Notes under the pieces: model-generated
What the model saw: only the letters and a program-made list of their open reading frames with translations
Told to the model about the DNA's origin: nothing
Database searches by the model: none
Position numbers and translations under genes: made by a program
Assembly (NCBI RefSeq): GCF_009388985.1
Contig: NZ_CP036422.1
Span: 3,238,501 to 3,302,500, forward strand
DNA: 64,000 nucleotides
Direction: 5' to 3'
Source: Halioglobus maricola
GTDB taxonomy: Bacteria; Pseudomonadota; Gammaproteobacteria; Pseudomonadales; Halieaceae
Shown here: one piece after another, positions 24,425 through 38,181 of the stretch
Position numbering within the stretch: the stretch's first letter is position 1
Layout: every line of letters begins with the position of its first letter

Positions 24425-25750
24425 CTACAGGAACTGCTGTAAAAGCTGCTGTACGTCGACTCGCGCCTTGAGCCTGCTCGCGAGCATGAACATCCCTCCC
24501 AGTTTGCGGTGAAAATACACCGCATCGGTGGGGGGCGTTCTCCAGAAATCCTTATAATTGGTGATCTCTTCCGCCATCTCTGACATTCTCGCCGCCATAT
24601 CGGAGCGGGCGAAATCGTAAGGGCCATCGTGCTGCAGCGGTTCCAGTGCCACGAAAAACAGATCGAGAATCATCGCGCGGTATTCACTGTCTTCATCACC
24701 AACGGCGTAGCCAATTTTTTCTGCCGCCGCCAGCAAGCGTTTCTCGTTCCCGGCAATTGCCGCTTTTGCCAGGCTGCGATAATTATTGACGAACCCTGCC
24801 TTAAAGCGGCGGGTAGCACCAAAATCCAGCAGCACGATCTTGCCGCTGGATCGGTTGTACTGATAATTGGCGAAGTTGGGGTCGGTCTGCACCATGCGCA
24901 GTTCGAATAACTCCCGGAACATCAGCTCTACCAACGCCGTCATCACCGCGTCCCGCTCCGCCTGCGGCAAAGTGGCAATTGACTCTATGTCCGCGCCCTC
25001 CACATAGGTCATGGCCAGCACGGTTTTGCGGGTCAGGTCGGGAAGAAGCTCGGGCACCACGAAACGGTCGTCATCCGCCAGCAGGTCGCCGAAGGCCGCG
25101 AGGAACTCGGCCTCCTTGTTGTAGTCTGCCTCGTCGTGAAGCTGCGCTTTGGCATCTTCCAACAGCGGCTGGATTTCCAATTCCGCTGGCAGCAAGCCTG
25201 AAAGTTTCAGCAACGATGCGATATTGTCCACATCGGAATTGATACTGGTCGCCACCCCCGGATACTGCACCTTGAGGACAATCTCGCGCCCGTCCGGCGA
25301 CATCGTTTTGTGTACCTGACCGATGGAGGCCGCCGCCAGCGGCCTGTGCTCGAAGCCATAAAACAGCGCCTCCCAGTCCTCGCCATAGGCGTCACTCATG
25401 ACCTGATCAAGCTGGCCCGGAGGCATGTAGCGCGCGTCTGAGCGCAGGCGAGCCAGAATGTCGGCGAGTTCACGCGGCAGGAAATCGCCCGTATCCATGG
25501 ACAGAATTTGCCCAACTTTCATCGCCGCGCCGCGCATGGTGGCCAACTGATCGGCAACCCGGCGGGCATTCCCCGGCGTGAGCAGCATGTCGCGAGCCTT
25601 GGGCCGTTTGCCGGCCTTCAGCTGGCGGGTGCCCTCGGCGATCATCCCACCGGCCACCCCCCCGGCCATTTTTGCCACGCGCGCAAACCGCCCTACACGG
25701 CTGGTAGGTATGGCTTTGTGGTCGTCATCTGATGGTTTGCGGCCGGCCAC
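24425..25750 (-). CDS. AarF/UbiB-family atypical kinase (second copy of a pair)
   Basis: A 441-residue ABC1/UbiB-type protein with a GTG start one base from the upstream homologue's stop. Family features are visible: PLAAASIGQVHKTM (the A-rich loop and KxGQ-like region), VLKVQYPGV (Lys of the ATP site), and VLLDFGATRRFKAG (DFG-like metal-binding motif). Members act as ATPases or kinases in ubiquinone or lipid homeostasis. There is no obvious transmembrane C-terminus as in UbiB. Two adjacent members suggest paralogues from tandem duplication. Confidence 0.85.
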   Translation of the reverse strand: MAGRKPSDDDHKAIPTSRVGRFARVAKMAGGVAGGMIAEGTRQLKAGKRPKARDMLLTPGNARRVADQLATMRGAAMKVGQILSMDTGDFLPRELADILARLRSDARYMPPGQLDQVMSDAYGEDWEALFYGFEHRPLAAASIGQVHKTMSPDGREIVLKVQYPGVATSINSDVDNIASLLKLSGLLPAELEIQPLLEDAKAQLHDEADYNKEAEFLAAFGDLLADDDRFVVPELLPDLTRKTVLAMTYVEGADIESIATLPQAERDAVMTALVELMFRELFELRMVQTDPNFANYQYNRSSGKIVLLDFGATRRFKAGFVNNYRSLAKAAIAGNEKRLLAAAEKIGYAVGDEDSEYRAMILDLFFVALEPLQHDGPYDFARSDMAARMSEMAEEITNYKDFWRTPPTDAVYFHRKLGGMFMLASRLKARVDVQQLLQQFL

Positions 25751-25751
25751 G

Positions 25752-27146
25752 CTATTCGCGCTCCTGCCAGGCGGCGATATGTGCTTCGATCATGTCACAG
25801 GCATTGAACTGGGCATCCAGTACGGAGATAAAGTTAAATACGCCGGTAAGCTTGCGGGCGATCAGTGCAAAATCACGCGAGGGCGCAGTAAAGTGCCGGC
25901 TTGTCGTGGATGCCGCGGCCTGCTTGCCCGCCCGCCGCATCAGCCGGGACGTACCCCAGCAGTATTCGCCCGCCTCATTGAGGTGCTCAGGCGGCAAGGC
26001 ATGCGCCGGACGCAACGGTTCCAGCAGATTGAGACAGAAATCAGCAAACATCTGTCGGCCCTCTTCACTGGCATCCGGGGTCAGGCAGCCCAGGCCAATC
26101 AGCCCCTCCACTATCGCCGGCACGTCCTGGCGCTGGCTCGCGGCAATGGTGTGCCTCAGGTGAAACAGGAATTCATCGGAGCAATCGAGCACGGAGCCGA
26201 AGTCCAGCAAGGCAAGCTCGTCTGCCGCTTCGCGCTTGCGCCGATCATCCAGCCTTAGCAGATAGTTGCCGAAATTCGGGTCGGTCTGCAGCATGCCCCA
26301 GTCGTACAGTTCATAGAAAAACAGTTCCAGCATTGCCTTGCCAAGTGCATTGCGACGCTGCTGCGACAGGCCAGCAACCTCGTCGTCAATGACTGACGAC
26401 CCCTCGATAAACTCCATCGCCAGCACATCGTGGGTACAGTAGTCGCGATACAGCTCAGGTACTTTATAGCTCACTCCTTCAGTCCTGACACCTGCAACGA
26501 GCCTGCCCATCTCCTCTGTCAGGGACGCCTCTCGGTGATAGTCAATTTCATTGTGCAGATGAGAGCGCAGCGACTGCATCCAGTGATCGAGGTCGCGGCC
26601 GGACTTCACCCAGCGCGCCAGAACCAACATCTTGATGACGGCATCAAAGTCGCTGTCGATCATCTCAGCCAGCCCCGGGTACTGCACCTTGATGCAGATC
26701 CATTCTCCGGTAGCGCGCACCTGGGCAAGATGCACCTGAGCGAGCGAAGCCGCGGCAATTGCCTCGGGGTCGATATCCAGCTCGTCGAAACGTTCACCGA
26801 GAGAACCGCGCACAAACGACTCCAGCGCGTCCCAGTGCAGGGGCTCAGTCTGATCAGACAGATCGCGTAGCGCATCAACCAGCACTGGCGGCAGAAAGTG
26901 CTCGCCAAACAAGGCGAGCATCTGGCCGATTTTTACATAGGTGCCCTTGAGCCGGCCGAGTTCGGCCGCAAAGCGCTGTGCCTCTCGGCGGGCAAATTCG
27001 GATTGGGGATCGTCCTCACTCTTGCCCATCAAGCGGGATACGGCACCGTCGACGGCAAGGGCACTGCCAGCGCGCACGCCGGCCATGGAAACACTCAAAC
27101 TACGGCGCAGGGCGCCGGTGGAAAACGTGGGCTTCTTTTTCGCCAC
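25752..27146 (-). CDS. AarF/UbiB-family atypical kinase (first copy of a pair)
   Basis: A 464-residue ABC1/UbiB homologue, first gene of the two-gene unit. Features: LKGTYVKIGQMLALFGEHFL (KxGQ motif), AAASLAQVHLAQV, WICIKVQYPGLAEM and LALLDFGSVLDCSDE. It is clearly related to the downstream copy but has diverged well beyond recent duplication. A role linked to quinones or to the neighbouring acyltransferase is possible but not shown. The promoter region should lie in the 263-base gap upstream. Confidence 0.85.
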   Translation of the reverse strand: MAKKKPTFSTGALRRSLSVSMAGVRAGSALAVDGAVSRLMGKSEDDPQSEFARREAQRFAAELGRLKGTYVKIGQMLALFGEHFLPPVLVDALRDLSDQTEPLHWDALESFVRGSLGERFDELDIDPEAIAAASLAQVHLAQVRATGEWICIKVQYPGLAEMIDSDFDAVIKMLVLARWVKSGRDLDHWMQSLRSHLHNEIDYHREASLTEEMGRLVAGVRTEGVSYKVPELYRDYCTHDVLAMEFIEGSSVIDDEVAGLSQQRRNALGKAMLELFFYELYDWGMLQTDPNFGNYLLRLDDRRKREAADELALLDFGSVLDCSDEFLFHLRHTIAASQRQDVPAIVEGLIGLGCLTPDASEEGRQMFADFCLNLLEPLRPAHALPPEHLNEAGEYCWGTSRLMRRAGKQAAASTTSRHFTAPSRDFALIARKLTGVFNFISVLDAQFNACDMIEAHIAAWQERE

Positions 27147-27358: not shown

Positions 27359-27386
27359 AAAAAAAAGCGCCGCTAAAGCGGCGCCC
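27359..27386 (-). terminator. Intrinsic terminator of the HAO-like/NapC operon
   Basis: GCGCCGC (27367-27373) pairs with GCGGCGC (27378-27384) around a short TAAA loop. On the minus strand it is followed by a run of T (plus-strand A-run up to 27366). It lies 24 bases after the octaheme cytochrome gene. The rest of the 27147-27409 gap shows no further gene. Confidence 0.85.
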
Positions 27387-27409: not shown

Positions 27410-28747
27410 TCAGTGCTTCTTGGCCGAAGGGGCATCTGCCTCGATCTCGCCAGACGCCAAGCGCTTCGCATGTATCAACTCCAGCTTGTACAGATCCTGC
27501 TGCAACTCGAAGAACCCATGCCAGTGCGCGTAATCCGCAGCACCCATCATGGCGCCCTGACGCGCACGGCGGCCCTCGTGGTGCCAGAGGTAGTAGTAGG
27601 TGATCTGGAACTCATCTGCCCAGGGGTTTTCCTTGAGCAGGCCCTTCTCCTTGAGCTCATCCAACATGGCGGTCGCTGGCTTGTAATAGGCCTCGTTGTA
27701 CAGCATCACCGCCTTGTCACCCTGGGCGAAGAAGCCATTGGTGTGGGTAGTGCTGTGGCAGTTGTTACAGACCTGCTTCATTTTTTCGCGCCCGGCAGGG
27801 CCGTCGCCGTGCCTGATGTCATACATATCGTCAGAGCCGCGCACCGGGGAGTACTTGGCCCAAAGGTTCCAGTACAGGCGCTCGGTGACGTTGTGCGTCA
27901 CGGAGAGGTCGCCGATGCCGCTCATATGGCAAGTGGCACAGGTCGGCGCGCGGTAATCACCGGGCTCCCAGGCATCCGGGGCTGTGTCCATCTTGTAGGT
28001 GTGGCCCTCGGTATTGAACACGTGGCCGTGCTTGGAATTGTTGAATATCTCGATATTCGGATGGTCCGGGCCAAGGTGACAGGAGGCGCAGGCGTTGGGG
28101 TTGCGAGCCTCAGCGATAGAAAACTTGTGACGGCTGTGGCACGCGGTACAGCTGCCGGTTGAGCCATCCGGGTACACATTGCCCATACCGTTGTTGGGCC
28201 AGGTCTCAGGCGTGGGGCGGTTGCTCTCGTCCAGTTTGATTTCGGTGCCATGGCACTGCATACAGCCGGTTTCATTCGGCGCGTCGCCATACTCCTCGTG
28301 GCTACGCCCCTCATGCACCATTGTCAGGGCGTGCAGGCTGTCTTTGGGAATAATCTGGCGATAGGCGCGGAAGTGACCGGACTGCTCGAACTGTTCCTTG
28401 GCGGCAACGTGACAGCGCCCACACACCTTGGGCGATACCAGCGGCGATACGAACACCGGGGTATCTTCCACATTGGCGTGGCGGGCAGCGTGGGGTGCAT
28501 CCTCGGGCACCGCGTGGCAATCGATGCATGACACACCTGCATGCGCGTGGCGGCTCTCGCGCCAGTCAGCTACCTGGCCGGGTGTTATCTGTTGGTGACA
28601 GGTAATACAGGCTTTACCTTCCGTACTCAGGTCGCGATTGATCTTTAGTGTTTTCACCGGCGCGATACTGATCGAAGTGTCAGCAGCTACCAAAGATGCA
28701 AAACCCATTGCGGCCAATACAAGCCCTAGCTTGATAACACGCTTCAT
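27410..28747 (-). CDS. HAO-like octaheme cytochrome c
   Basis: A 445-residue exported protein with a signal peptide (LVLAAMGFASLVAADTS) and eight CXXCH haem sites: CITCH, CIDCH, CGRCH, CMQCH, CTACH, CASCH, CATCH and CNNCH. The tail RRARQGAMMGAADYAHWHGF resembles the hydroxylamine oxidoreductase family. With a NapC partner, HAO-like proteins of epsilonproteobacteria act as reductases (nitrite or hydroxylamine to ammonia) rather than oxidases. Whether the HAO tyrosine crosslink residue is present cannot be judged here. The ATG overlaps the NapC-type gene's stop (ATGA). It could instead be an electron relay for the divergent Mtr-type genes. Confidence 0.85.
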   Translation of the reverse strand: MKRVIKLGLVLAAMGFASLVAADTSISIAPVKTLKINRDLSTEGKACITCHQQITPGQVADWRESRHAHAGVSCIDCHAVPEDAPHAARHANVEDTPVFVSPLVSPKVCGRCHVAAKEQFEQSGHFRAYRQIIPKDSLHALTMVHEGRSHEEYGDAPNETGCMQCHGTEIKLDESNRPTPETWPNNGMGNVYPDGSTGSCTACHSRHKFSIAEARNPNACASCHLGPDHPNIEIFNNSKHGHVFNTEGHTYKMDTAPDAWEPGDYRAPTCATCHMSGIGDLSVTHNVTERLYWNLWAKYSPVRGSDDMYDIRHGDGPAGREKMKQVCNNCHSTTHTNGFFAQGDKAVMLYNEAYYKPATAMLDELKEKGLLKENPWADEFQITYYYLWHHEGRRARQGAMMGAADYAHWHGFFELQQDLYKLELIHAKRLASGEIEADAPSAKKH

Positions 28748-29301
28748 TCTGCTTCTCCTTCGGCTTCAGGCTTCGGCCAGCCCATTTCTTCGAGGTGATA
28801 ACCCAGACGATTGTGGCCCACATTCTCGTGACACTCGACACAGCTGTAGTCGTCTGGATCATTGAAGTACCGGCGGTGCGAACGGAAAGCCCGGCGGTTG
28901 CCTTCTGTAGCCTCTTGTAAATAAAGATGGCAGCTCAGGCACCCTGAATCGTAAACAAACTCTGTCCGTCGTTCGCGATTGCCATGCCAGTCAATATCGT
29001 AAGGATCCTTGAGGAGCTCCATGGTGGGATCAACTATCCCATGCATGCCTTTTACCCACAGATACTTGAGGGCATTGCCCTGAGGGATATGGCACTGGGA
29101 ACAGGTAGCGCGCCAGCCGGCTTCGTTATTGCCACCGTGCAGATCTTCGCGGTAAGCGGCGCTCATTGGCTCAAGAGAGTGGCAGGAGCCACAAAAAGCG
29201 TCATCGCCGGTGGCATGAATCATGGTGTCCATCACCGCCCAACTGGCGGCTACGCCCAGGCCGAGACCTGCGAGCACTAGCGCGATCTTAAGAAATTTCA
29301 C
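28744..29301 (-). CDS. NapC/NirT/CymA-type tetraheme quinol dehydrogenase
   Basis: A 185-residue protein with a GTG start and GGGGAAG nine bases upstream. One N-terminal membrane anchor (FLKIALVLAGLGLGVAASWA) is followed by four CXXCH sites: CGSCH, CSQCH, CLSCH and CVECH. This is the NapC/CymA layout: it oxidises membrane quinol and passes electrons to periplasmic cytochromes. It is coupled to the HAO-like gene and divergent from the Mtr-like genes. In Shewanella CymA feeds MtrA, so it might serve both branches. Confidence 0.92.
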   Translation of the reverse strand: MKFLKIALVLAGLGLGVAASWAVMDTMIHATGDDAFCGSCHSLEPMSAAYREDLHGGNNEAGWRATCSQCHIPQGNALKYLWVKGMHGIVDPTMELLKDPYDIDWHGNRERRTEFVYDSGCLSCHLYLQEATEGNRRAFRSHRRYFNDPDDYSCVECHENVGHNRLGYHLEEMGWPKPEAEGEAE

Positions 29302-29376
29302 GATTCAATCTTCCCCTACGACTGAGAATTGCTCTCAATACCAGTACATTTTGTATGACTATGATATTAGCAAAGG

Positions 29377-29392
29377 ATTGCGACTGTGCAAT
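29377..29392. promoter_or_regulatory. Inverted repeat in the divergent cytochrome control region
   Basis: ATTGC-N6-GCAAT lies in the 192-base gap between the NapC-type gene and the UbiA-type gene. It is the cleanest symmetric site I see there. It may be an operator for one or both directions. No regulator family can be named from the sequence. Confidence 0.25.
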
Positions 29393-29493
29393 TCGATCAA
29401 GGCCCGGCAAACACCGAAATAGTAACGAAAATTCGCAGGCGAGAAGAAATAGGTTACTCTCACAATCAAAGCAGCGGATGTGAACAGGCACAG

Positions 29494-30486
29494 ATGATCG
29501 ATGTAAAAATGTGGGGCCACGCCCTCAACCGCATGCCCAAGCTCTCCCAGAGTGAATGGCAGGCGCTGGACCCGGTGGCCAAGTGGCTCATAGCCTCCCG
29601 CGCTTCCGTTCTGTTCATGACATTCACCGCCGCCGCCCTCGGAGGCCTGATGGCCTGGCGCGCCGGCGTCTTTCAATGGGACCTGTGGCTCGCCACCGTG
29701 TTCGGTTTGATGTTCGCTCATGCCACGAACAACCTGCTCAACGACTACACCGATTCTCGTCGCGGCATCGACAAGGAAAACTACTACCGCAATCAATACG
29801 GCGTGCATGTGCTCGAAGACGGCTTGATGGACGAGCCCCAGTTCTGGCGCTATGTCGGGGTCACTGCCGGTATCGCCCTGGCTCTCGGTGGCTGGTTGGT
29901 TTACCAGCGCAGTGGTCTCACTTTTGACCTGATGCTGGCGGGCGCCTTTTTTGTGCTCTTTTACACTTGGCCGCTTAAATACTACGGCCTGGGCGAGCCC
30001 GCAGTCTTGCTGGTTTGGGGCCCGCTGATGGTTGGCGGAAGTTTCTATGTGCTCGCCGGTTTCTGGAGCTGGGATGTCACCTGGCTCAGCCTCGTGTTCG
30101 CCCTGGGACCCACCACGGTACTGTTCGGTAAACACACCGATAAGCTGGACGCCGATAAGGCCAAGGGTGTGAATACCCTGCCAGTGATTCTGGGCGAGAA
30201 GATTTCCCGCTACGCGGTACTGGCGATGATGGTGGCGCAATATCTGCTGTGCATCGGTCTGGTGGTCACAGGCAGCTTCGCGTGGCCTTTGCTGCTGGTA
30301 TTGGCCAGCCTCAACAGCATGCCCCGCCTGTTCAGTCTGTACTCTGAACCCAAGCCTGAAGAACCCCCTCAGAACTACCCCGAGGGCATCTGGCCCCTGT
30401 GGTTTTCAGCCCAGGCGTTCCGCCATACCCGGCGCTTTACCTCGCTGTTCCTGGTTGGGGTTATTCTGGATACCTTGATCGCGTGA
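29494..30486 (+). CDS. UbiA-family prenyltransferase in the electron-transfer operon
   Basis: From the ATG at 29494 the protein is 330 residues with about eight hydrophobic segments. The UbiA signatures are NNLLNDYTDSRRGID (first Asp-rich motif) and HTDKLDADKAKGVNTLPV (second). It should attach a polyprenyl chain to an aromatic acceptor, as MenA or UbiA do. The stop overlaps the GTG of the octaheme cytochrome gene (GTGA), so it belongs to the cytochrome operon. That suggests a quinone made for this electron path. A longer in-frame start at 29386 is possible but the extension is not membrane-protein-like. The aromatic substrate is unknown. Confidence 0.82.
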   Translation: MIDVKMWGHALNRMPKLSQSEWQALDPVAKWLIASRASVLFMTFTAAALGGLMAWRAGVFQWDLWLATVFGLMFAHATNNLLNDYTDSRRGIDKENYYRNQYGVHVLEDGLMDEPQFWRYVGVTAGIALALGGWLVYQRSGLTFDLMLAGAFFVLFYTWPLKYYGLGEPAVLLVWGPLMVGGSFYVLAGFWSWDVTWLSLVFALGPTTVLFGKHTDKLDADKAKGVNTLPVILGEKISRYAVLAMMVAQYLLCIGLVVTGSFAWPLLLVLASLNSMPRLFSLYSEPKPEEPPQNYPEGIWPLWFSAQAFRHTRRFTSLFLVGVILDTLIA

Positions 30487-31244
30487 AAATATTTGTAACG
30501 ATTTGCCTGCTGCTACTTCCAGCTCTCGCAATGGCCGCGACCGACAACGTCGATCCGGCGACGGCTTCTGCCATCCAGGTGTGCCTGGACTGTCACGACT
30601 ACGGCGACGACGCACCAGTGCACCAGGTATTACAGGGCTCCCACGGTATTGAAGGTGACCCGGAGGATATCGCCGGGCGTCGCGCCTGCCTCGATTGCCA
30701 TGGCGAAAGCGAGGCCCATATTGCAGCGCCAAAGAAAATGGCACCGGACCGCAGCTTCGGCCCCCGCTGGCCCAGCGAAGCAGGTGAACAGGATCGCCCC
30801 TGCCTCGACTGCCACGAGGACAATACCGCCGAGAACTGGCGCAATGCATTGCATATGGTGAATGGCCTCACTTGCGTTACCTGCCACGACATTCACGCCG
30901 AGGTTGACCCGGTACTATCCCACCAGGATCAACAAAAGGTCTGCACAGATTGCCACGAGAGCCTGAAAGAGGGCATTCACGAGCTTGGCGGCATGGGCGA
31001 CACCGATCCGCCCTGTAGCGCATGTCACAACCCCCACGATCACGAGCAAGCAGAGCCGCGCATGCGAGCTAACCAGAGTGCCGGGTGCGTGTTCTGCCAC
31101 AACGGTGAAGAGATGGAAGCCATCGGCGCTTTCAACAGCAAAGCGGCGAAATACCACGGCGTGCTGGGACGCAGCGAACGCAGCTGTATCGACTGCCACC
31201 AGAGCATTCCCCATGCTCCGCTTCCGGCCGACCCCGACGAGTAA
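30483..31244 (+). CDS. Periplasmic octaheme c-type cytochrome
   Basis: A 253-residue protein starting at the GTG that overlaps the prenyltransferase stop. Signal peptide: VKIFVTICLLLLPALAMA. It carries eight CXXCH sites: CLDCH (three times), CVTCH, CTDCH, CSACH, CVFCH and CIDCH. Spacing and the repeated HE/HD residues resemble the DmsE/MtrA/NrfB group, and the sequence resembles the first part of the next gene, the decaheme. It probably carries electrons through the periplasm. It may be a duplicated, shortened MtrA. Confidence 0.85.
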   Translation: MKIFVTICLLLLPALAMAATDNVDPATASAIQVCLDCHDYGDDAPVHQVLQGSHGIEGDPEDIAGRRACLDCHGESEAHIAAPKKMAPDRSFGPRWPSEAGEQDRPCLDCHEDNTAENWRNALHMVNGLTCVTCHDIHAEVDPVLSHQDQQKVCTDCHESLKEGIHELGGMGDTDPPCSACHNPHDHEQAEPRMRANQSAGCVFCHNGEEMEAIGAFNSKAAKYHGVLGRSERSCIDCHQSIPHAPLPADPDE

Positions 31245-31263
31245 ATAAGTTCCCCGGGCTTTG

Positions 31264-31277
31264 TTGACTCAAGTCAA
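31264..31277. promoter_or_regulatory. FNR/CRP-family-like site upstream of the mtrA homologue
   Basis: TTGACTCAAGTCAA is a perfect 5-4-5 palindrome (TTGAC-N4-GTCAA) in the 135-base gap before the mtrA-like gene, 103 bases from its ATG. The FNR consensus is TTGAT-N4-ATCAA, so both TTGA/TCAA cores match and one symmetric base differs. It suggests oxygen- or nitric-oxide-responsive control of the mtrA-B-C part. Confidence 0.45.
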
Positions 31278-31379
31278 GAAAGCCCATAGTTTCGAAGTTT
31301 GCGGATGGTACCCTCAGCTCGCTTCATCAATAATGCAATAGGGTTGTTGTTCGTTTCGCCTGCTCACGGAAGCGCAGCC

Positions 31380-32258
31380 ATGATAAGAAAGCAGTTACAG
31401 TTCGCCATAATCGCACTATGTAGCCTCGCCCTGCCGGCGCTAGCGCAAGATGAGCCCGGCTGCCTGGACTGCCACGCGCAGGAAGACTCTCCGGAGCTGC
31501 ATCAGGTGTTTAACAGTGCTCACGGCGACGTGAATGGCGGTGGCGCAGCGGCCTGCACCGCATGCCACGGTCCAAGCGAGGCCCATGATCGCCGTGGCCG
31601 CCGCGTCTCCCCCGATATCAGCTTTGGCCCCAAGTGGGGGTCCGAACCCGCAGCACAGAACGATAGCTGCCTCGCTTGCCACGAGAGCACCGGTGGCAAA
31701 CTCGCCTGGCTCGGCAGCGAGCACGAGCAGGAAAACATGGTGTGTGCCGACTGCCACGACTCACACACGACCCGTGACCCAGTGATGGAGGTGGAGACCG
31801 CACAGACTCAGTGCCTCACCTGCCACAGCCGCCAACGCGCGGAGTTGAACATGCCGTCGCGCCACCCGATTGCTGAGGGCAAGACCGCCTGCACCGATTG
31901 CCACAACCCCCACGGCAGCACCACCCACGCCGCGCTGCATCAGGTCACCCTGAATGAAAACTGCTACAGCTGCCACGAGGAAAAGCGCGGCCCAATGCTG
32001 TGGGAGCACGAACCGGTCACTGAAGACTGCGCCAATTGCCACACCCCTCACGGCTCAGTACACGACAACCTGCTCACCGCGCGAGGCCCGGCCCAGTGCC
32101 AGCAGTGCCACTCTGCCGCCTTCCACCCCAGCGTGCCCTATGGCGGTGAAGGCCTCAGCGGCAGCATGAATGCCAACGTTGCCGGCAAAAACTGCATGAA
32201 TTGCCACAGCCAGGTTCACGGCTCCAACCACCCATCCGGAGCGAGGCTGACACGATGA
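31380..32258 (+). CDS. mtrA: MtrA/DmsE-like decaheme cytochrome c
   Basis: I start at the ATG at 31380 (signal peptide MIRKQLQFAIIALCSLALPA), giving 292 residues. Ten CXXCH sites are present: CLDCH, CTACH, CLACH, CADCH, CLTCH, CTDCH, CYSCH, CANCH, CQQCH and CMNCH. That count and size match MtrA/DmsE/PioA, the periplasmic wire that threads an outer-membrane barrel. The next gene encodes that barrel and overlaps by four bases (ATGA). It receives electrons from periplasmic or inner-membrane cytochromes and passes them outward, or the reverse in iron oxidisers. Confidence 0.92.
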   Translation: MIRKQLQFAIIALCSLALPALAQDEPGCLDCHAQEDSPELHQVFNSAHGDVNGGGAAACTACHGPSEAHDRRGRRVSPDISFGPKWGSEPAAQNDSCLACHESTGGKLAWLGSEHEQENMVCADCHDSHTTRDPVMEVETAQTQCLTCHSRQRAELNMPSRHPIAEGKTACTDCHNPHGSTTHAALHQVTLNENCYSCHEEKRGPMLWEHEPVTEDCANCHTPHGSVHDNLLTARGPAQCQQCHSAAFHPSVPYGGEGLSGSMNANVAGKNCMNCHSQVHGSNHPSGARLTR

Positions 32259-34516
32259 CCCAACGCTCGCAGATACCCTTTCGCCTCAGCGCTATCGCCG
32301 CGTTGGTGTTGGCGGCAAGCACTGCCCTGGCGCAGGACAAAGCTGAACCGGAAGAAGAAGCCATTTACCGCCCACTGCAAGTGACCGCGCTGGCGTCTCC
32401 CGACGTACTGCTGAGCGAGTATCGAGGCACGGTTGAGCTTGGGCTGGGTTACACCTCAGACGACAACTTTATGTTCGGCCGCTACAACGGGCTGCAGGAA
32501 GATGGCGCCACACTGATCGGCAACCTGAACTGGCAGGATTTCAGTGGTGACAGCAACTGGCGCGTAACGTTGTCTGATCTGGGTCTGGACACCCGAGAGG
32601 GCGAAGTGACATGGCAGAACAAGAATGCTTTCAAACTGAGCCTGGGCTTCGACTCACAACAGCAGGTCAACAATAACAGTGGCGCAACGCCCTTCCGCGG
32701 CAGCGGCACCCTCACCCTGCCAGACGAATGGGTATACGGCTCCACCACGGGCGACTTCAGCGAACTACAGGCATCACTGAATTACTTCGATCAGGAAATT
32801 ACCCGCGACAAACTGTTCGCCAATCTCTCCACCCGGCTGGGCGACCGCTGGCACCTGAGCGGTGGCCTCAGTTACGAACAAAAAGAAGGCACCGGCGATA
32901 TCAGCGGTGCCATGTACACGGACGCAGCTTCCGGCGATGCCGCCTACCTGCCCATGGACATCGACTACGAAACAACGGAGTTCGATATCGGCCTGAGTTA
33001 TGCAGCCACCGGGCTCAATCTTGAAGCACGCCTGGACTATTCTGATTTCAACAATCAGGACGACATTCTCATCTGGGAAAATCCCTATCGCTCCCGCACC
33101 CCGGACTCCATGGGTGGCATGAGCCTCGCGCCAGACAACGACCAGTTGCAGGGGCGTATCACTGGCCAGTACATCATTACCCCGACAGCTCGCCTGCAGT
33201 TCGACGGCAGCTACGCGGTAGCATCGCAAGACAACGACTACCTTGCCTACAGCGTGAATCCCAATGCAGTGGTCACAACCCCCCTGCCCCGTGAGTCTTT
33301 CGATGGTGAAGCGCAGACCGGCACCCTGAATGCCAAGCTGTGGCTGCGGCCGATCAACAAACTGGACGTAGAGCTGTTCTATAAAGGCCGCGAGCGCGAC
33401 TACGATAACCCGCGCGATGGCTATACCTATATTCGGGGCGACGGCCTGTCACAACCGCGCGATGAACTGACGGTGTACAACACGTCACACCATTATCAAT
33501 CGCAGATTATCGGCCTGGAGACCACCTGGCGTTTGCCCAAGCGCACCCGCTTCACCTTTGAATATGAGTACGAAAAGGAAGAGCGCGAGAATGCGGCGGT
33601 GGAAGAAACAGAAGAAGATCGCGTCGTGCTCGGCTTGCGGGCACAGCCGCTGGACGGGCTGACTGCGCGACTGGAATTTGGCTACGCTAACCGGGCTGCA
33701 GACACTTACAACTGGGATCAGCGCTACTACGCCCTGCTGGATGTGGAACTCATCAACGCCACGCCTGACAGCCAGCGCTATATCAATCATCCCGAGCTCA
33801 GTCAGTACCACCTGTCGAACCGTGAGCGCACCCACGGCAAACTGGATCTGAGCTGGCTGCCGACCGACAACTGGCTCCTCAATTTCAACATGCTGTTGCA
33901 GGCGGACGACTACGACAAGAGCTATCTGGGCCTGCGTGACGCCGCCTGGGAACGCTACCATCTCAGCGCTAGCTACACGGCAGTCAAGGATGTGACCGCC
34001 ACACTCTATGGCGGCTTCGACCGCTACGAGACAGAGCAGATGGGCCGCGCATTCCGTGGCGGCGCCGAGAAGAATGCTTTTGAAATTTACCAGCCTCTGC
34101 CCCAGGCCAGCGACCCCGATCGCGACTGGCAGCTGGATGCGGGCAACGACGCCATCACAGTTGGCGCCAATATTCAGTGGATGGTGGCAGACGACCTCAA
34201 AATCGAAGCGGACTACAGCTACGTGGACACCGAGGGTGACCAGACCTTCAAGACCTACGGCGCAGCGGACCTCAACCCCGAGGATCTGCCCACGGTGGAG
34301 ACGACCCTCCATCACCTGAACGCGAGCGGCACCTGGCATATGCGCAAGGATCTGTCGTTCAAGCTGCAATACCAGTACTACAACTACGAGTCCAATGACT
34401 GGGCGCTCGAAGGTGTGGCGCTAGATAGCATCGATAATGTACTTACTTTCGGGGCATATAACCCCGACGAAGATATTCACTACGTGGGTGTGTCAGCGCT
34501 TTACCGCTGGCAGTAA
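32255..34516 (+). CDS. mtrB: MtrB/PioB-like outer-membrane barrel
   Basis: From the ATG at 32255 (MTQRSQIPFRLSAIAALVLA, a signal peptide cut near STALAQ) the protein is 753 residues. It consists of alternating amphipathic strands with many Tyr/Asp-rich turns, and ends in an aromatic strand (VGVSALYRWQ), as expected of a large beta-barrel. It is the sheath holding the MtrA-type decaheme across the outer membrane. I see no Cys in the mature part, so the N-terminal CXXC reported for Shewanella MtrB is absent. The order A-B-C differs from Shewanella, where mtrC comes first. Confidence 0.88.
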   Translation: MTQRSQIPFRLSAIAALVLAASTALAQDKAEPEEEAIYRPLQVTALASPDVLLSEYRGTVELGLGYTSDDNFMFGRYNGLQEDGATLIGNLNWQDFSGDSNWRVTLSDLGLDTREGEVTWQNKNAFKLSLGFDSQQQVNNNSGATPFRGSGTLTLPDEWVYGSTTGDFSELQASLNYFDQEITRDKLFANLSTRLGDRWHLSGGLSYEQKEGTGDISGAMYTDAASGDAAYLPMDIDYETTEFDIGLSYAATGLNLEARLDYSDFNNQDDILIWENPYRSRTPDSMGGMSLAPDNDQLQGRITGQYIITPTARLQFDGSYAVASQDNDYLAYSVNPNAVVTTPLPRESFDGEAQTGTLNAKLWLRPINKLDVELFYKGRERDYDNPRDGYTYIRGDGLSQPRDELTVYNTSHHYQSQIIGLETTWRLPKRTRFTFEYEYEKEERENAAVEETEEDRVVLGLRAQPLDGLTARLEFGYANRAADTYNWDQRYYALLDVELINATPDSQRYINHPELSQYHLSNRERTHGKLDLSWLPTDNWLLNFNMLLQADDYDKSYLGLRDAAWERYHLSASYTAVKDVTATLYGGFDRYETEQMGRAFRGGAEKNAFEIYQPLPQASDPDRDWQLDAGNDAITVGANIQWMVADDLKIEADYSYVDTEGDQTFKTYGAADLNPEDLPTVETTLHHLNASGTWHMRKDLSFKLQYQYYNYESNDWALEGVALDSIDNVLTFGAYNPDEDIHYVGVSALYRWQ

Positions 34517-34535
34517 CACCAGGGAGACGGGAACC

Positions 34536-36785
34536 ATGCTAAGGACAACAAGGAACTGGCTTACAGCTGCGTCCATCGGGCTGTTAGTGGCCTGCGGCGG
34601 CGGTGGCGGCGGTGATCGCGCGGAGGGCGTCGAGCCGGGCGATGGCGGCGGCAGTATCGTTGTACCGCCACCGGTCGTACCGGACCCCACACCTGCTCCC
34701 TACGTAGAAGCGGAAGAACTGCTGGCCACCATCACCTCGATAACCCTTGATGGTGAGAACCGTGCAATCGTTGAATTCCAGCTTACCAACGGCTCCGGCA
34801 CCGCCATCGTCGACCTCGAGATCGACAATCTGCGGTTCGTGATTTCCAAACTTCAGGTGAGCCCGCTGGGCAATCTGACCGGCACCTGGCAATCCTATGT
34901 CAATGTAGTAGCTTCACCCGAGGTTGGCACCGGCACTGAGCCGAGACTGCAGGCGACGTACGAACGCGGCGAGAACTTCGTCAACAACCAGGACGGCACC
35001 TACCAGTACACCTTCGACCAGAGCCTGACAGACATTCCTGCAGACGTGCTGGCACAGGCAGAAACCGAGGGCCTGGATCTTTCCTACGACGCGAATCTCA
35101 CGCACCGGGTTGCAATGCAGTTCGATGGCAACCCCAACACCACCGCCAACCCCTTCTACGACTGGGTACCGGCTAACGGCGCGACCAGTGCGATCTTCAC
35201 CATGGATATCGCCGCTACCGCTAACTGTAATAACTGCCACGACCCACTGGGGATCCACGGCGGTAATCGCCGCGAAATACAGTACTGCGTGACCTGCCAT
35301 AACGCAGGCTCAACTGATCCGGACAGCACCAACACCGTGGACATGAAGGTGATGATTCACAAGATCCACATGGGCAAGAACCTCCCCAGCGTGCAGGAAG
35401 GGGGCCAGTACGTGATTTACGGTTTCCGCAACAGCCCGCATGACTACTCCGAGCTGGGCTATCCGCAGGACATTCGCAACTGCGTTAATTGCCACGCGGG
35501 CCCCATCACAGGTGAGGGCCGCGATGACCTCGTGCTGACCGCACAGGGTGACAACTGGTCTGAATACGGTTCTACCGCCGCCTGTGGCAGCTGCCACGAG
35601 AACGCCACCGGCCATATGGAAGCCAACGGCGACGAAAACTGCGCCAGCTGCCACTCCAGCGGCGGCGCCGCGGGCAGCATCGCCCAGAGCCATGTCAATC
35701 TGGTCACCGAAGCCGGCCAGATGTTCGCCTCGAAAATCGAGGGCGTAAGCAACACCATGCCGGGTGAGTTCCCCGCGGTAAATGTCAGGATCAGCAACCC
35801 CGAGACGGGTGAAGACTACGACCTGCTCAGTGACCCGGTCATGGCAGGAATGCGTGTCACACTCGGCTGGGATACCAGGGATTACACCAATACTGGCGCG
35901 GGTGGCGACAATGCCAGCACCGTATCAGTGGGTATTCCAGATAACGCCAGCGCCAACGGCGATGGCAGCTTCACCGTCACCTCGCCCACCGCTATTCCCG
36001 ACGGCAGCGAGGCTCCGGGCATTGCTGCCAGTGGCAGTGGCGCGGCCACCGTCGAAGGTCATCCCGACATGGATGTCGACGGAGACGGCGAAACGGAAAG
36101 TATCCCTGTGACCAATGTTTCCATGGCGTTCTCCATCAATGAAGCTGACGGCGCAGCGGTAGATCGTCGCACCTCGGTGACGATAGAACAGTGCAACGCC
36201 TGTCACAGTTCCCTGGTGCTGCACGGCGGCAATCGCACCGACGACATCGGCACCTGTGTCACCTGTCACAACCCGCGCAATACCGATGCACGCGTACGTG
36301 AAGTGGCTATGGATCCTCCCACCGACGGCAAGGATGAGGAATCCATCGACTTCAAAACCATGGTGCACGGTATCCACGCCCCTTCCATGCGTGAGAACGC
36401 CCTGGAAATCGTCGGCTTCCGCGGCTTCAGCACTCACCGCTACGACGAAGAGCACGTGCACTACCCGGGCGATCTGTCCAATTGCACCAGCTGTCACGTC
36501 GACGGCGGCTTCACCCTGCCGCTGGCAGACGGTGTGCTGGGCACCAGCATCGACACCGGCGAGAATCGGGCCGATCCAACCGACGACACCGTGGTGAGCC
36601 CGGCCTCTGCGGTGTGTTCAAGCTGTCACGATGACGCCGTTGCGCAGTCTCATATGACGTCCAATGGCGGTAACTTCGCCACTACCCAGGCCGCGCTCGA
36701 TGCCGGTGAAGTGGTAGAGGAGTGCTCCGTGTGTCACAAAGAAGGCGCTACTGCGGCCGTGTCCGACGTGCATAACCCGCACTGA
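34536..36785 (+). CDS. mtrC: OmcA/MtrC-family decaheme surface lipoprotein
   Basis: The ATG at 34536 follows GGGAGACGGG and gives a lipoprotein signal ending in LLVACGGGGGG. The 749-residue protein has two pentaheme domains separated by beta-rich domains. The first has CNNCH, CVTCH, CVNCH, CGSCH and CASCH; the second has CNACH, CVTCH, CTSCH, CSSCH and CSVCH. This is the MtrC/OmcA plan of an outer-surface terminal reductase that passes electrons to minerals, soluble shuttles or partners. GNR-containing repeats (LHGGNR/IHGGNR) flank haems 1-2 and 6-7, showing that the halves arose by duplication. A terminator follows. Confidence 0.93.
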   Translation: MLRTTRNWLTAASIGLLVACGGGGGGDRAEGVEPGDGGGSIVVPPPVVPDPTPAPYVEAEELLATITSITLDGENRAIVEFQLTNGSGTAIVDLEIDNLRFVISKLQVSPLGNLTGTWQSYVNVVASPEVGTGTEPRLQATYERGENFVNNQDGTYQYTFDQSLTDIPADVLAQAETEGLDLSYDANLTHRVAMQFDGNPNTTANPFYDWVPANGATSAIFTMDIAATANCNNCHDPLGIHGGNRREIQYCVTCHNAGSTDPDSTNTVDMKVMIHKIHMGKNLPSVQEGGQYVIYGFRNSPHDYSELGYPQDIRNCVNCHAGPITGEGRDDLVLTAQGDNWSEYGSTAACGSCHENATGHMEANGDENCASCHSSGGAAGSIAQSHVNLVTEAGQMFASKIEGVSNTMPGEFPAVNVRISNPETGEDYDLLSDPVMAGMRVTLGWDTRDYTNTGAGGDNASTVSVGIPDNASANGDGSFTVTSPTAIPDGSEAPGIAASGSGAATVEGHPDMDVDGDGETESIPVTNVSMAFSINEADGAAVDRRTSVTIEQCNACHSSLVLHGGNRTDDIGTCVTCHNPRNTDARVREVAMDPPTDGKDEESIDFKTMVHGIHAPSMRENALEIVGFRGFSTHRYDEEHVHYPGDLSNCTSCHVDGGFTLPLADGVLGTSIDTGENRADPTDDTVVSPASAVCSSCHDDAVAQSHMTSNGGNFATTQAALDAGEVVEECSVCHKEGATAAVSDVHNPH

Positions 36786-36810
36786 GCCGCACTCACAGGC
36801 AGTGACTGAC

Positions 36811-36840
36811 CAGGGGCCGCGACTAGGCCCCTTTTCTTTT
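36811..36840 (+). terminator. Intrinsic terminator after the mtrC homologue
   Basis: GGGGCC (36813-36818) pairs with GGCCCC (36826-36831) around a 7-base loop, then TTTTCTTTT. It ends the cytochrome operon and separates it from hemH. Confidence 0.85.
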
Positions 36841-36859
36841 CAAAAAAACAATCCACCCC

Positions 36860-36888
36860 TTGGCGACCAGCGTATCCACACGTATATT
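36860..36888 (+). promoter_or_regulatory. Predicted hemH promoter, possibly leaderless
   Basis: TTGGCG (36860-36865), a 17-base spacer and TATATT (36883-36888) form a plausible promoter. The hemH ATG begins only 8 bases after the -10 box, so transcription would start at or beside the start codon. No ribosome-binding site is seen, which fits a leaderless message. Confidence 0.5.
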
Positions 36889-36896
36889 GGCGCCCC

Positions 36897-37931
36897 ATGG
36901 ACAAGAGCAGTACTACAGTGACCGATTCACAACGCCCACGGACTGGTATTCTTCTCACCAATCTGGGCACTCCCGATGCGCCTGATAAGGCGGCAGTAAA
37001 ACGCTACCTGAAGGAATTCCTCTCCGACTACAGAGTGGTCGACCTGCCGCGCTGGCTGTGGATACCGCTTCTCAATGGCGTCATCCTCAATATTCGCCCG
37101 GCGAGATCCGCGGCAGCCTACTCCACCGTCTGGACTGAAGAAGGCTCGCCCCTGATGGTTCACACGCGCGCCCAGGCTCAGGCGGTCGCCAAAATCATGG
37201 AGGAGCGTCACGGCAGTGAAGTCGTCGTCGACTTTGCGATGCGCTATGGCAATCCCTCTATCGCGAGCGTCGTGGACAGAATGCTGGAGCAAGGCGTCGA
37301 GCAGTTGCTCGTGCTGCCGCTATTCCCCCAGTACAGCGGAGCAACGGTGGCCTCCACATCCGATGCCCTGAATCACTATCTCGAAACGCGCCGCTCCATG
37401 CCTGCCATCCGGTTTATATCCGGCTACAGCGACAACGCCGACTACATAGCCGCCCTGGCGCTCAGCATCAGGAGCTATCAAGCTGAACACGGTGTTCCAC
37501 AGGAATTGATTTTTTCCTACCACGGCATTCCCCAACGCTACTGCGATGAGGGAGACCCCTACGAGCAGCAGTGCCACCGCACCACACAGCTGGTGGTGGA
37601 ACTCCTTGGCCTCAAGGAAGGCCAATACCGAACTGTGTTCCAGTCGCGTTTCGGAAGAGAACCCTGGCTCAAGCCCTACGCAGACGAAACCCTGGCCGAG
37701 CTGCCCGGCAATGGCGTTGAGTCAATTCAGGTGATTTGCCCGGGCTTTTCAGCTGACTGCCTCGAGACGATCGAAGAAATGGGCGAAGAAAACCGCGACG
37801 TCTTTCTCGACGCCGGCGGTGATAAGTACGGTTTCATTCCCTGCCTGAACAGTAGCCCTGAGCACATTGCTGCGCTGACCCAGCTAATTGATGAACAGTT
37901 GGCAGGATGGGTGGAAGAACCTCTGGGCTAG
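36897..37931 (+). CDS. hemH: Ferrochelatase
   Basis: A 344-residue protein of normal HemH length. It begins the domain with GILLTNLGTPDAPDKAAVKR and has the catalytic His in FSYHGIPQRY and the conserved Glu in CPGFSADCLETIEEM. It inserts ferrous iron into protoporphyrin IX to make haem. Its place directly after a decaheme operon fits a high local need for haem. It has its own promoter and no clear Shine-Dalgarno; a later GTG at 36918 is a less likely alternative start. Confidence 0.95.
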   Translation: MDKSSTTVTDSQRPRTGILLTNLGTPDAPDKAAVKRYLKEFLSDYRVVDLPRWLWIPLLNGVILNIRPARSAAAYSTVWTEEGSPLMVHTRAQAQAVAKIMEERHGSEVVVDFAMRYGNPSIASVVDRMLEQGVEQLLVLPLFPQYSGATVASTSDALNHYLETRRSMPAIRFISGYSDNADYIAALALSIRSYQAEHGVPQELIFSYHGIPQRYCDEGDPYEQQCHRTTQLVVELLGLKEGQYRTVFQSRFGREPWLKPYADETLAELPGNGVESIQVICPGFSADCLETIEEMGEENRDVFLDAGGDKYGFIPCLNSSPEHIAALTQLIDEQLAGWVEEPLG

Positions 37932-37941
37932 CGCCCCCACA

Positions 37942-38181
37942 TCACTCCGCGAGCAACGTTGCGATAATAGCTTTCAGCTGATCTTCGTTGAAATCAGCGT
38001 TGTCCGCATGGCGCTTGATGCTGGTGTCAGAGGCTGTCGCCAGAACTTCTTCAGCACTCATGCCTTCCCAATCTTCTGAAGGCACATGGCAATCCAGGCA
38101 CAGTTCCTCGTCACCCGAGAAAGCAGGCGCGGCTACAGCAAGACAGGTGGCAGAAACGAGAATCGCGAGTTGGCGTCTCAT
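37942..38181 (-). CDS. Small monoheme c-type cytochrome
   Basis: A 79-residue exported protein: signal peptide MRRQLAILVSATCLAVAAPA, then a single CLDCH haem motif and a helical tail (FNEDQLKAIIATLLAE). The size is that of a short class I cytochrome. It is convergent with hemH and lies next to the cytochrome locus, so it may shuttle electrons in the same network. The sixth ligand is not obvious. Confidence 0.75.
   Translation of the reverse strand: MRRQLAILVSATCLAVAAPAFSGDEELCLDCHVPSEDWEGMSAEEVLATASDTSIKRHADNADFNEDQLKAIIATLLAE

Follow-up and report, generated by a model that had tools for sequence, protein, structure and literature searches.

Members of the Halieaceae are marine heterotrophs that are usually regarded as plain aerobes. 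Baker et al. (2022) found mtrCAB in 148 species, their Group 6 consisting mostly of Halieaceae, and described satellite genes around the core (PMC8805035); a preliminary description of the DNA studied here had placed MtrABC mainly in Shewanella and relatives, a distribution that is too narrow. In Sideroxydans ES-1, which has ubiquinone genes only, the NapC-type protein ImoA is proposed to reduce quinone, and inward electron flow is proposed (PMC13390432). Here, we report a locus in a 64-kb window (the whole stretch of DNA analysed) that, judged by gene content and order, is of the published kind, Halieaceae Group 6 mtrCAB with satellites. Added beyond Baker et al. 2022 are a predicted reductive-type octaheme cytochrome (OCC), a shortened MtrA satellite, a single NapC, probable coupling to ubiquinone, and a putative deletion scar in a genome of the same genus (G002).

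Gene content and layout of the locus

A six-frame scan of the window gave, at positions 27410-38181, 41 CXXCH sites over six open reading frames (8, 4, 8, 10, 10, and 1), as the preliminary description had counted; the remainder of the window holds the motif only as scattered single matches, with nothing comparable. The features are as follows.

27365..27386, minus strand: terminator-like hairpin 3' of the OCC gene (9-bp stem and T run; consensus match only)
27410..28747, minus strand: OCC, HAO-superfamily octaheme cytochrome (with a signal peptide and 8 CXXCH; distal Asp-His pair kept, and His in place of HAO Tyr467)
28744..29301, minus strand: NapC/NirT-family membrane-anchored tetraheme cytochrome, CymA/ImoA/NrfH-like (4 CXXCH)
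29386..30486, plus strand: prenyltransferase of the UbiA superfamily, opening the rightward unit
30483..31244, plus strand: octaheme MtrA paralogue, periplasmic (8 CXXCH; homologue of mtrA-DOMON without haem 9 and the C-terminal EB_dh/DOMON domain)
31380..32258, plus strand: MtrA, DmsE-family decaheme (signal peptide, 10 CXXCH)
32255..34516, plus strand: MtrB/PioB outer-membrane barrel (26 strands, no Cys)
34536..36785, plus strand: MtrC/OmcA decaheme lipoprotein (10 CXXCH; lipobox LVAC, then poly-Gly)
36812..36832, plus strand: terminator-like hairpin 3' of mtrC (consensus match only)
36897..37931, plus strand: ferrochelatase HemH, a resident neighbour gene
37942..38181, minus strand: periplasmic monohaem cytochrome, the "mono" of Baker et al. 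(1 CXXCH)

Family models also name NapC/NirT, multihaem/HAO-like, UbiA superfamily, and ferrochelatase among the window's open reading frames. The octaheme paralogue most likely starts at a GTG at 30483 (read from the sequence), overlapping the UbiA stop, and four-base overlaps join mtrB with mtrA and the OCC start with the napC stop. Two transcription units are likely, a leftward napC-occ and a rightward UbiA-mtrA8-mtrA-mtrB-mtrC that does not include hemH, because terminator-like hairpins stand 3' of the OCC gene and of mtrC. The hairpin scan counted 12 such sites, where 9.2 are expected from shuffled sequence, so that their placement alone is suggestive. The ferrochelatase gene, placed earlier "between" the cytochromes, does lie between mtrC and the monohaem gene, and it is not among the core genes. 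A search for plasmid carriage of the locus gave no good match.

HemH is a resident neighbour, not a part of the conduit; its gene also occupies the same region in mtr-less relatives (PMC8805035). The UbiA gene is likewise counted as a neighbour, because UbiA is present in many mtr-less relatives and the true ubiquinone UbiA is encoded elsewhere in the genome; a role for the window protein in electron transfer is doubtful. MenA was rejected as its role (the genome lacks MenD, and none of the MenA models reached its cut-off). In G002, a C-terminal UbiA piece and two OCC pieces remain between the hemH and ABC1 kinase genes, hemH is kept, and the conduit genes, NapC, and the monohaem gene are missing, the last excluded because only about 34 bases part the HemH and rhodanese matches. 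We read this region as a deletion scar of the locus. Two tandem ABC1/AarF-like kinase genes (window 24425-27146) adjoin the locus, are kept in relatives, and flank the G002 scar.

The conduit and its satellites

All three core proteins score above the cut-offs of their NCBIfam models: MtrA with TIGR03508 (DmsE/MtrA decaheme; 263 bits, cut-off 192), MtrB with TIGR03509 (MtrB/PioB; 325 bits, cut-off 240), and MtrC with TIGR03507 (OmcA/MtrC decaheme; 473 bits, cut-off 209). The best solved match of MtrA is chain A of the Mtr complex (6r2q_A, E 1.5e-73), and MtrC matches MtrF and OmcA. MtrB, modelled as a single chain with 22 relatives (mean pLDDT 67, most strands well above), folded into 26 long strands by our own count, the number in crystal MtrB (PMC7198977), and its top PDB match by Foldseek was 6r2q_B (E 2e-32; next match 3e-10); modelling of the MtrA-MtrB-MtrC complex had been proposed as a check, and as far as a single chain goes, the barrel does model. 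The lipobox of MtrC, LVAC followed by Gly residues, is present in the window and in all relatives examined, which agrees with the lipoprotein nature expected earlier and with a predicted surface location.

MtrC was present in 33 of the 195 genomes searched, the window's own included; named relatives are Pseudohalioglobus, Seongchinamella, Haliea, and Kineobactrum. The fetched loci in other genomes keep the order mtrA-mtrB-mtrC. The view in the preliminary description of a genuine MtrCAB locus with an order unlike that of Shewanella and a divergent NapC/HAO-like pair holds. The locus is real and apparently intact. Two variant loci were seen among relatives: in L050 (G051), the MtrC gene is directly followed by another, divergent one (32% identity), and in L056 (G039, a one-contig genome), mtrB and mtrA-DOMON are each split over two frames by frameshifts or sequencing errors.

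In 16 fetched loci, the homologue of the octaheme MtrA paralogue carries nine haems followed by a further domain at the C terminus; that domain, called EB_dh by Pfam in one of three tested, corresponds to that of Baker's mtrA-DOMON. Homology of the window protein spans eight haems and then stops, so it has neither the ninth haem nor the DOMON domain that define mtrA-DOMON; the protein also ends just past haem 8 in G008 (L044). No DOMON remnant was found 3' of the octaheme gene in the window locus or in G008 (L044). A tree built on the shared part places the window sequence, with full support, among DOMON-bearing members of its genus and L044 apart from them, and the domain was therefore probably lost twice. 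Several fetched loci lack any gene for this paralogue, which is thus accessory.

NapC (PF03264, 95 bits) has four CXXCH sites and an N-terminal membrane anchor read from the sequence, as expected of the NapC/NirT family, and is the sole family member in the genome; the two further PF03264 matches belong to MtrA-type proteins encoded in this locus. Each of the 25 fetched loci uncut by an upstream contig end has one or more genes for a NapC-type tetraheme, whether divergent or co-directed.

OCC is probably the "ohc" of Baker et al. Its profile matched 4qo5 best among solved structures (2e-64), with HAO structures also matched. In an alignment with HAO genes fetched from other genomes (N. europaea HAO numbering), the Asp267-His268 pair is conserved, and the Tyr467 column holds His in the window and in 14 of the 15 relatives aligned, with Gln in the other. 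Tyr at this position is linked to oxidative enzymes and His to reductive ones (PMC12758564). OCC lacks the Tyr467 of oxidative HAO (the P460 cross-link) and combines eight CXXCH sites and an HAO-superfamily match with no cross-link Tyr, as reductive HAO-like proteins do (PMC12758564). We therefore predict, from the His in the Tyr467 column, a reductase of the reductive octaheme type; by analogy with the family, the substrate is likely nitrite or hydroxylamine. The AlphaFold model of OCC was poor (pLDDT 48). A short C-terminal OCC fragment had no PDB match, and a 6h5l fragment used as query found only itself. NapA was not found in this genome, so the source of nitrite is not obvious. Within the genus, NapA occurs in G001, G006, and G007 (no intact OCC) and not in G000 and G003-G005 (with OCC), in small numbers. 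In other Gammaproteobacteria (L119, L121-L126, L128, and L145), a large open reading frame with nine CXXCH sites stands 3' of OCC instead of the NapC gene.

Conceivably, NapC and OCC form a nitrite/hydroxylamine reductase of their own, next to the mtr operon by chance. The pair stands away from mtr in five genomes (G013, G035, G051, G081, and G092), and G064 and G156 carry it but have no MtrC. Gammaproteobacteria widely carry OCC-like genes (52 of 369 genomes). OCC, being often unlinked or missing, may be independent of the conduit. Against an independent pair, five mtr loci that lack OCC still have NapC alongside (G001, with an OCC remnant only, G006, G037, G072, and G090), and almost all OCC-bearing genomes of the family also have MtrC (16 of 17; Fisher p about 1e-8 or lower, for an assumed 96 to 120 genomes in the family and ignoring phylogeny). 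On balance, we think a chance neighbourhood rather unlikely.

The reading that we prefer, and hold to be quite probable, is a Halieaceae-type Group 6 MtrCAB conduit with NapC to the quinone pool and OCC as a separate reductive-type enzyme. With its 10 haems, MtrA would sit within the MtrB barrel and connect the periplasm with MtrC, a lipoprotein of the surface that also has 10 haems. The sole NapC tetraheme would link this conduit with the quinone pool, presumably ubiquinone, and the monohaem protein and octaheme MtrA paralogue would act as periplasmic carriers. OCC would draw on the same NapC node to reduce its putative substrate. Electron flow might be outward, to acceptors of high potential, or inward, from cells or reduced minerals.

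Quinone pool and direction of electron flow

MenD was absent from this genome and from all Halieaceae sampled, by a model that can miss unusual menaquinone routes. The futalosine route was rejected, since the sole match to the MqnC model, which can likewise miss unusual routes, is CofGH of F420 synthesis. This bifunctional FO synthase (G000:C1:2882247-2884523, L201) lies within a longer open frame, in a gammaproteobacterium. Because the menaquinone pathway was not found and the ubiquinone UbiA is present, the conduit is probably coupled to ubiquinone, by analogy with Sideroxydans ImoA.

Electron export under low oxygen, as offered in the preliminary description, was a guess, and with no detectable menaquinone pathway in the genome, export to acceptors of low potential should not be assumed by default. 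Export as in Shewanella would have NapC oxidise ubiquinol or an undetected low-potential quinol and pass the electrons to Mn(IV), Fe(III), humics, or iodate at low oxygen. It fits a full MtrCAB with an OmcA-family MtrC and a NapC/NrfH-type anchor, and ImoA can stand in for CymA in Shewanella (PMC13390432); set against this are the failure to find a menaquinone pathway and the specificity of CymA for menaquinone-7 (reported in the title of a paper cited in PMC5829830). That no menaquinone pathway was found, together with the parallel in ES-1, weakens the case for export, which we regard as a real possibility somewhat short of likely.

Uptake would instead carry electrons from Fe(II), reduced minerals, cathodes, or partner cells through MtrCAB, the monohaem protein, and NapC to ubiquinone and on to oxidases. 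The quinone genes of this genome and of ES-1, where an ImoA is the proposed quinone reducer, argue for it, and a related mtrC is carried by L162, a Haliea MAG titled "Biocath", in which only the record title suggests a cathode source. A full MtrC is, on the other hand, usually tied to exporters, and direction is not inferable for most mtr-bearing organisms of this sort (Baker et al., PMC8805035). We rejected phototrophic uptake of electrons in this genome, in which no PufLM was found, and likewise RuBisCO autotrophy (no RuBisCO found); with neither RuBisCO nor a photosystem, uptake could only add energy. We entertain uptake tentatively and consider it somewhat doubtful.

A broader proposal joins these elements: a ubiquinone-linked, possibly two-way conduit in aerobic marine heterotrophs, with NapC as a hub shared by MtrCAB and a reductive octaheme nitrogen-oxide reductase. 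We rate the whole as rather improbable; if it were true, electrons from outside the cell could feed the respiration of oxygen as well as the reduction of nitrite or hydroxylamine. The conduit category itself is already known, and the ubiquinone link and shared NapC hub are the aspects most worth testing. If MtrCAB is ubiquinone-linked here, its occurrence in cultured close relatives, among them Pseudohalioglobus sediminis NY5 and P. lutimaris HF004, would make the direction of such a conduit testable outside Shewanella, and the locus illustrates how satellites (NapC, OCC, mono, and mtrA-DOMON) are gained, shortened, and lost around a constant core.

Comparison with known systems

Group 6 loci and the present locus share the order mtrA-mtrB-mtrC, a sole mtrC directly 3' of mtrAB, hemH just downstream, and satellites comprising an inner-membrane tetraheme, an octaheme, a monohaem, and MtrA-family proteins. 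They differ in that the MtrA-family satellite of the window lacks haem 9 and the DOMON/EB_dh domain and that its only NapC is divergent, with no co-directed copy.

The Shewanella MtrCAB complex (6r2q) is matched in its MtrA, MtrB, and MtrC homologues, 26-strand barrel, and decaheme counts, whereas the present locus has the order A-B-C, no extra omcA/mtrC copies, a divergent NapC-OCC pair, and a genome in which no menaquinone route was found. With MtoAB/ImoA of Sideroxydans ES-1 (PMC13390432), it shares an MtrAB-type conduit, a NapC-type anchor, and a monohaem carrier, and both genomes have ubiquinone and no menaquinone genes; the MtrC lipoprotein sets the present locus apart, and ES-1 is an iron-oxidising autotroph, in contrast to the window genome, which lacks RuBisCO. 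Like 4qo5 of Ignicoccus hospitalis and reductive HAO-like proteins, OCC has no Tyr at the cross-link column. This column is Thr in 4qo5 (profile alignment) and His in OCC, 4qo5 has Asp-Val where OCC has the Asp-His pair, and OCC, unlike the Ignicoccus and reductive HAO-like proteins, is encoded beside a NapC gene.
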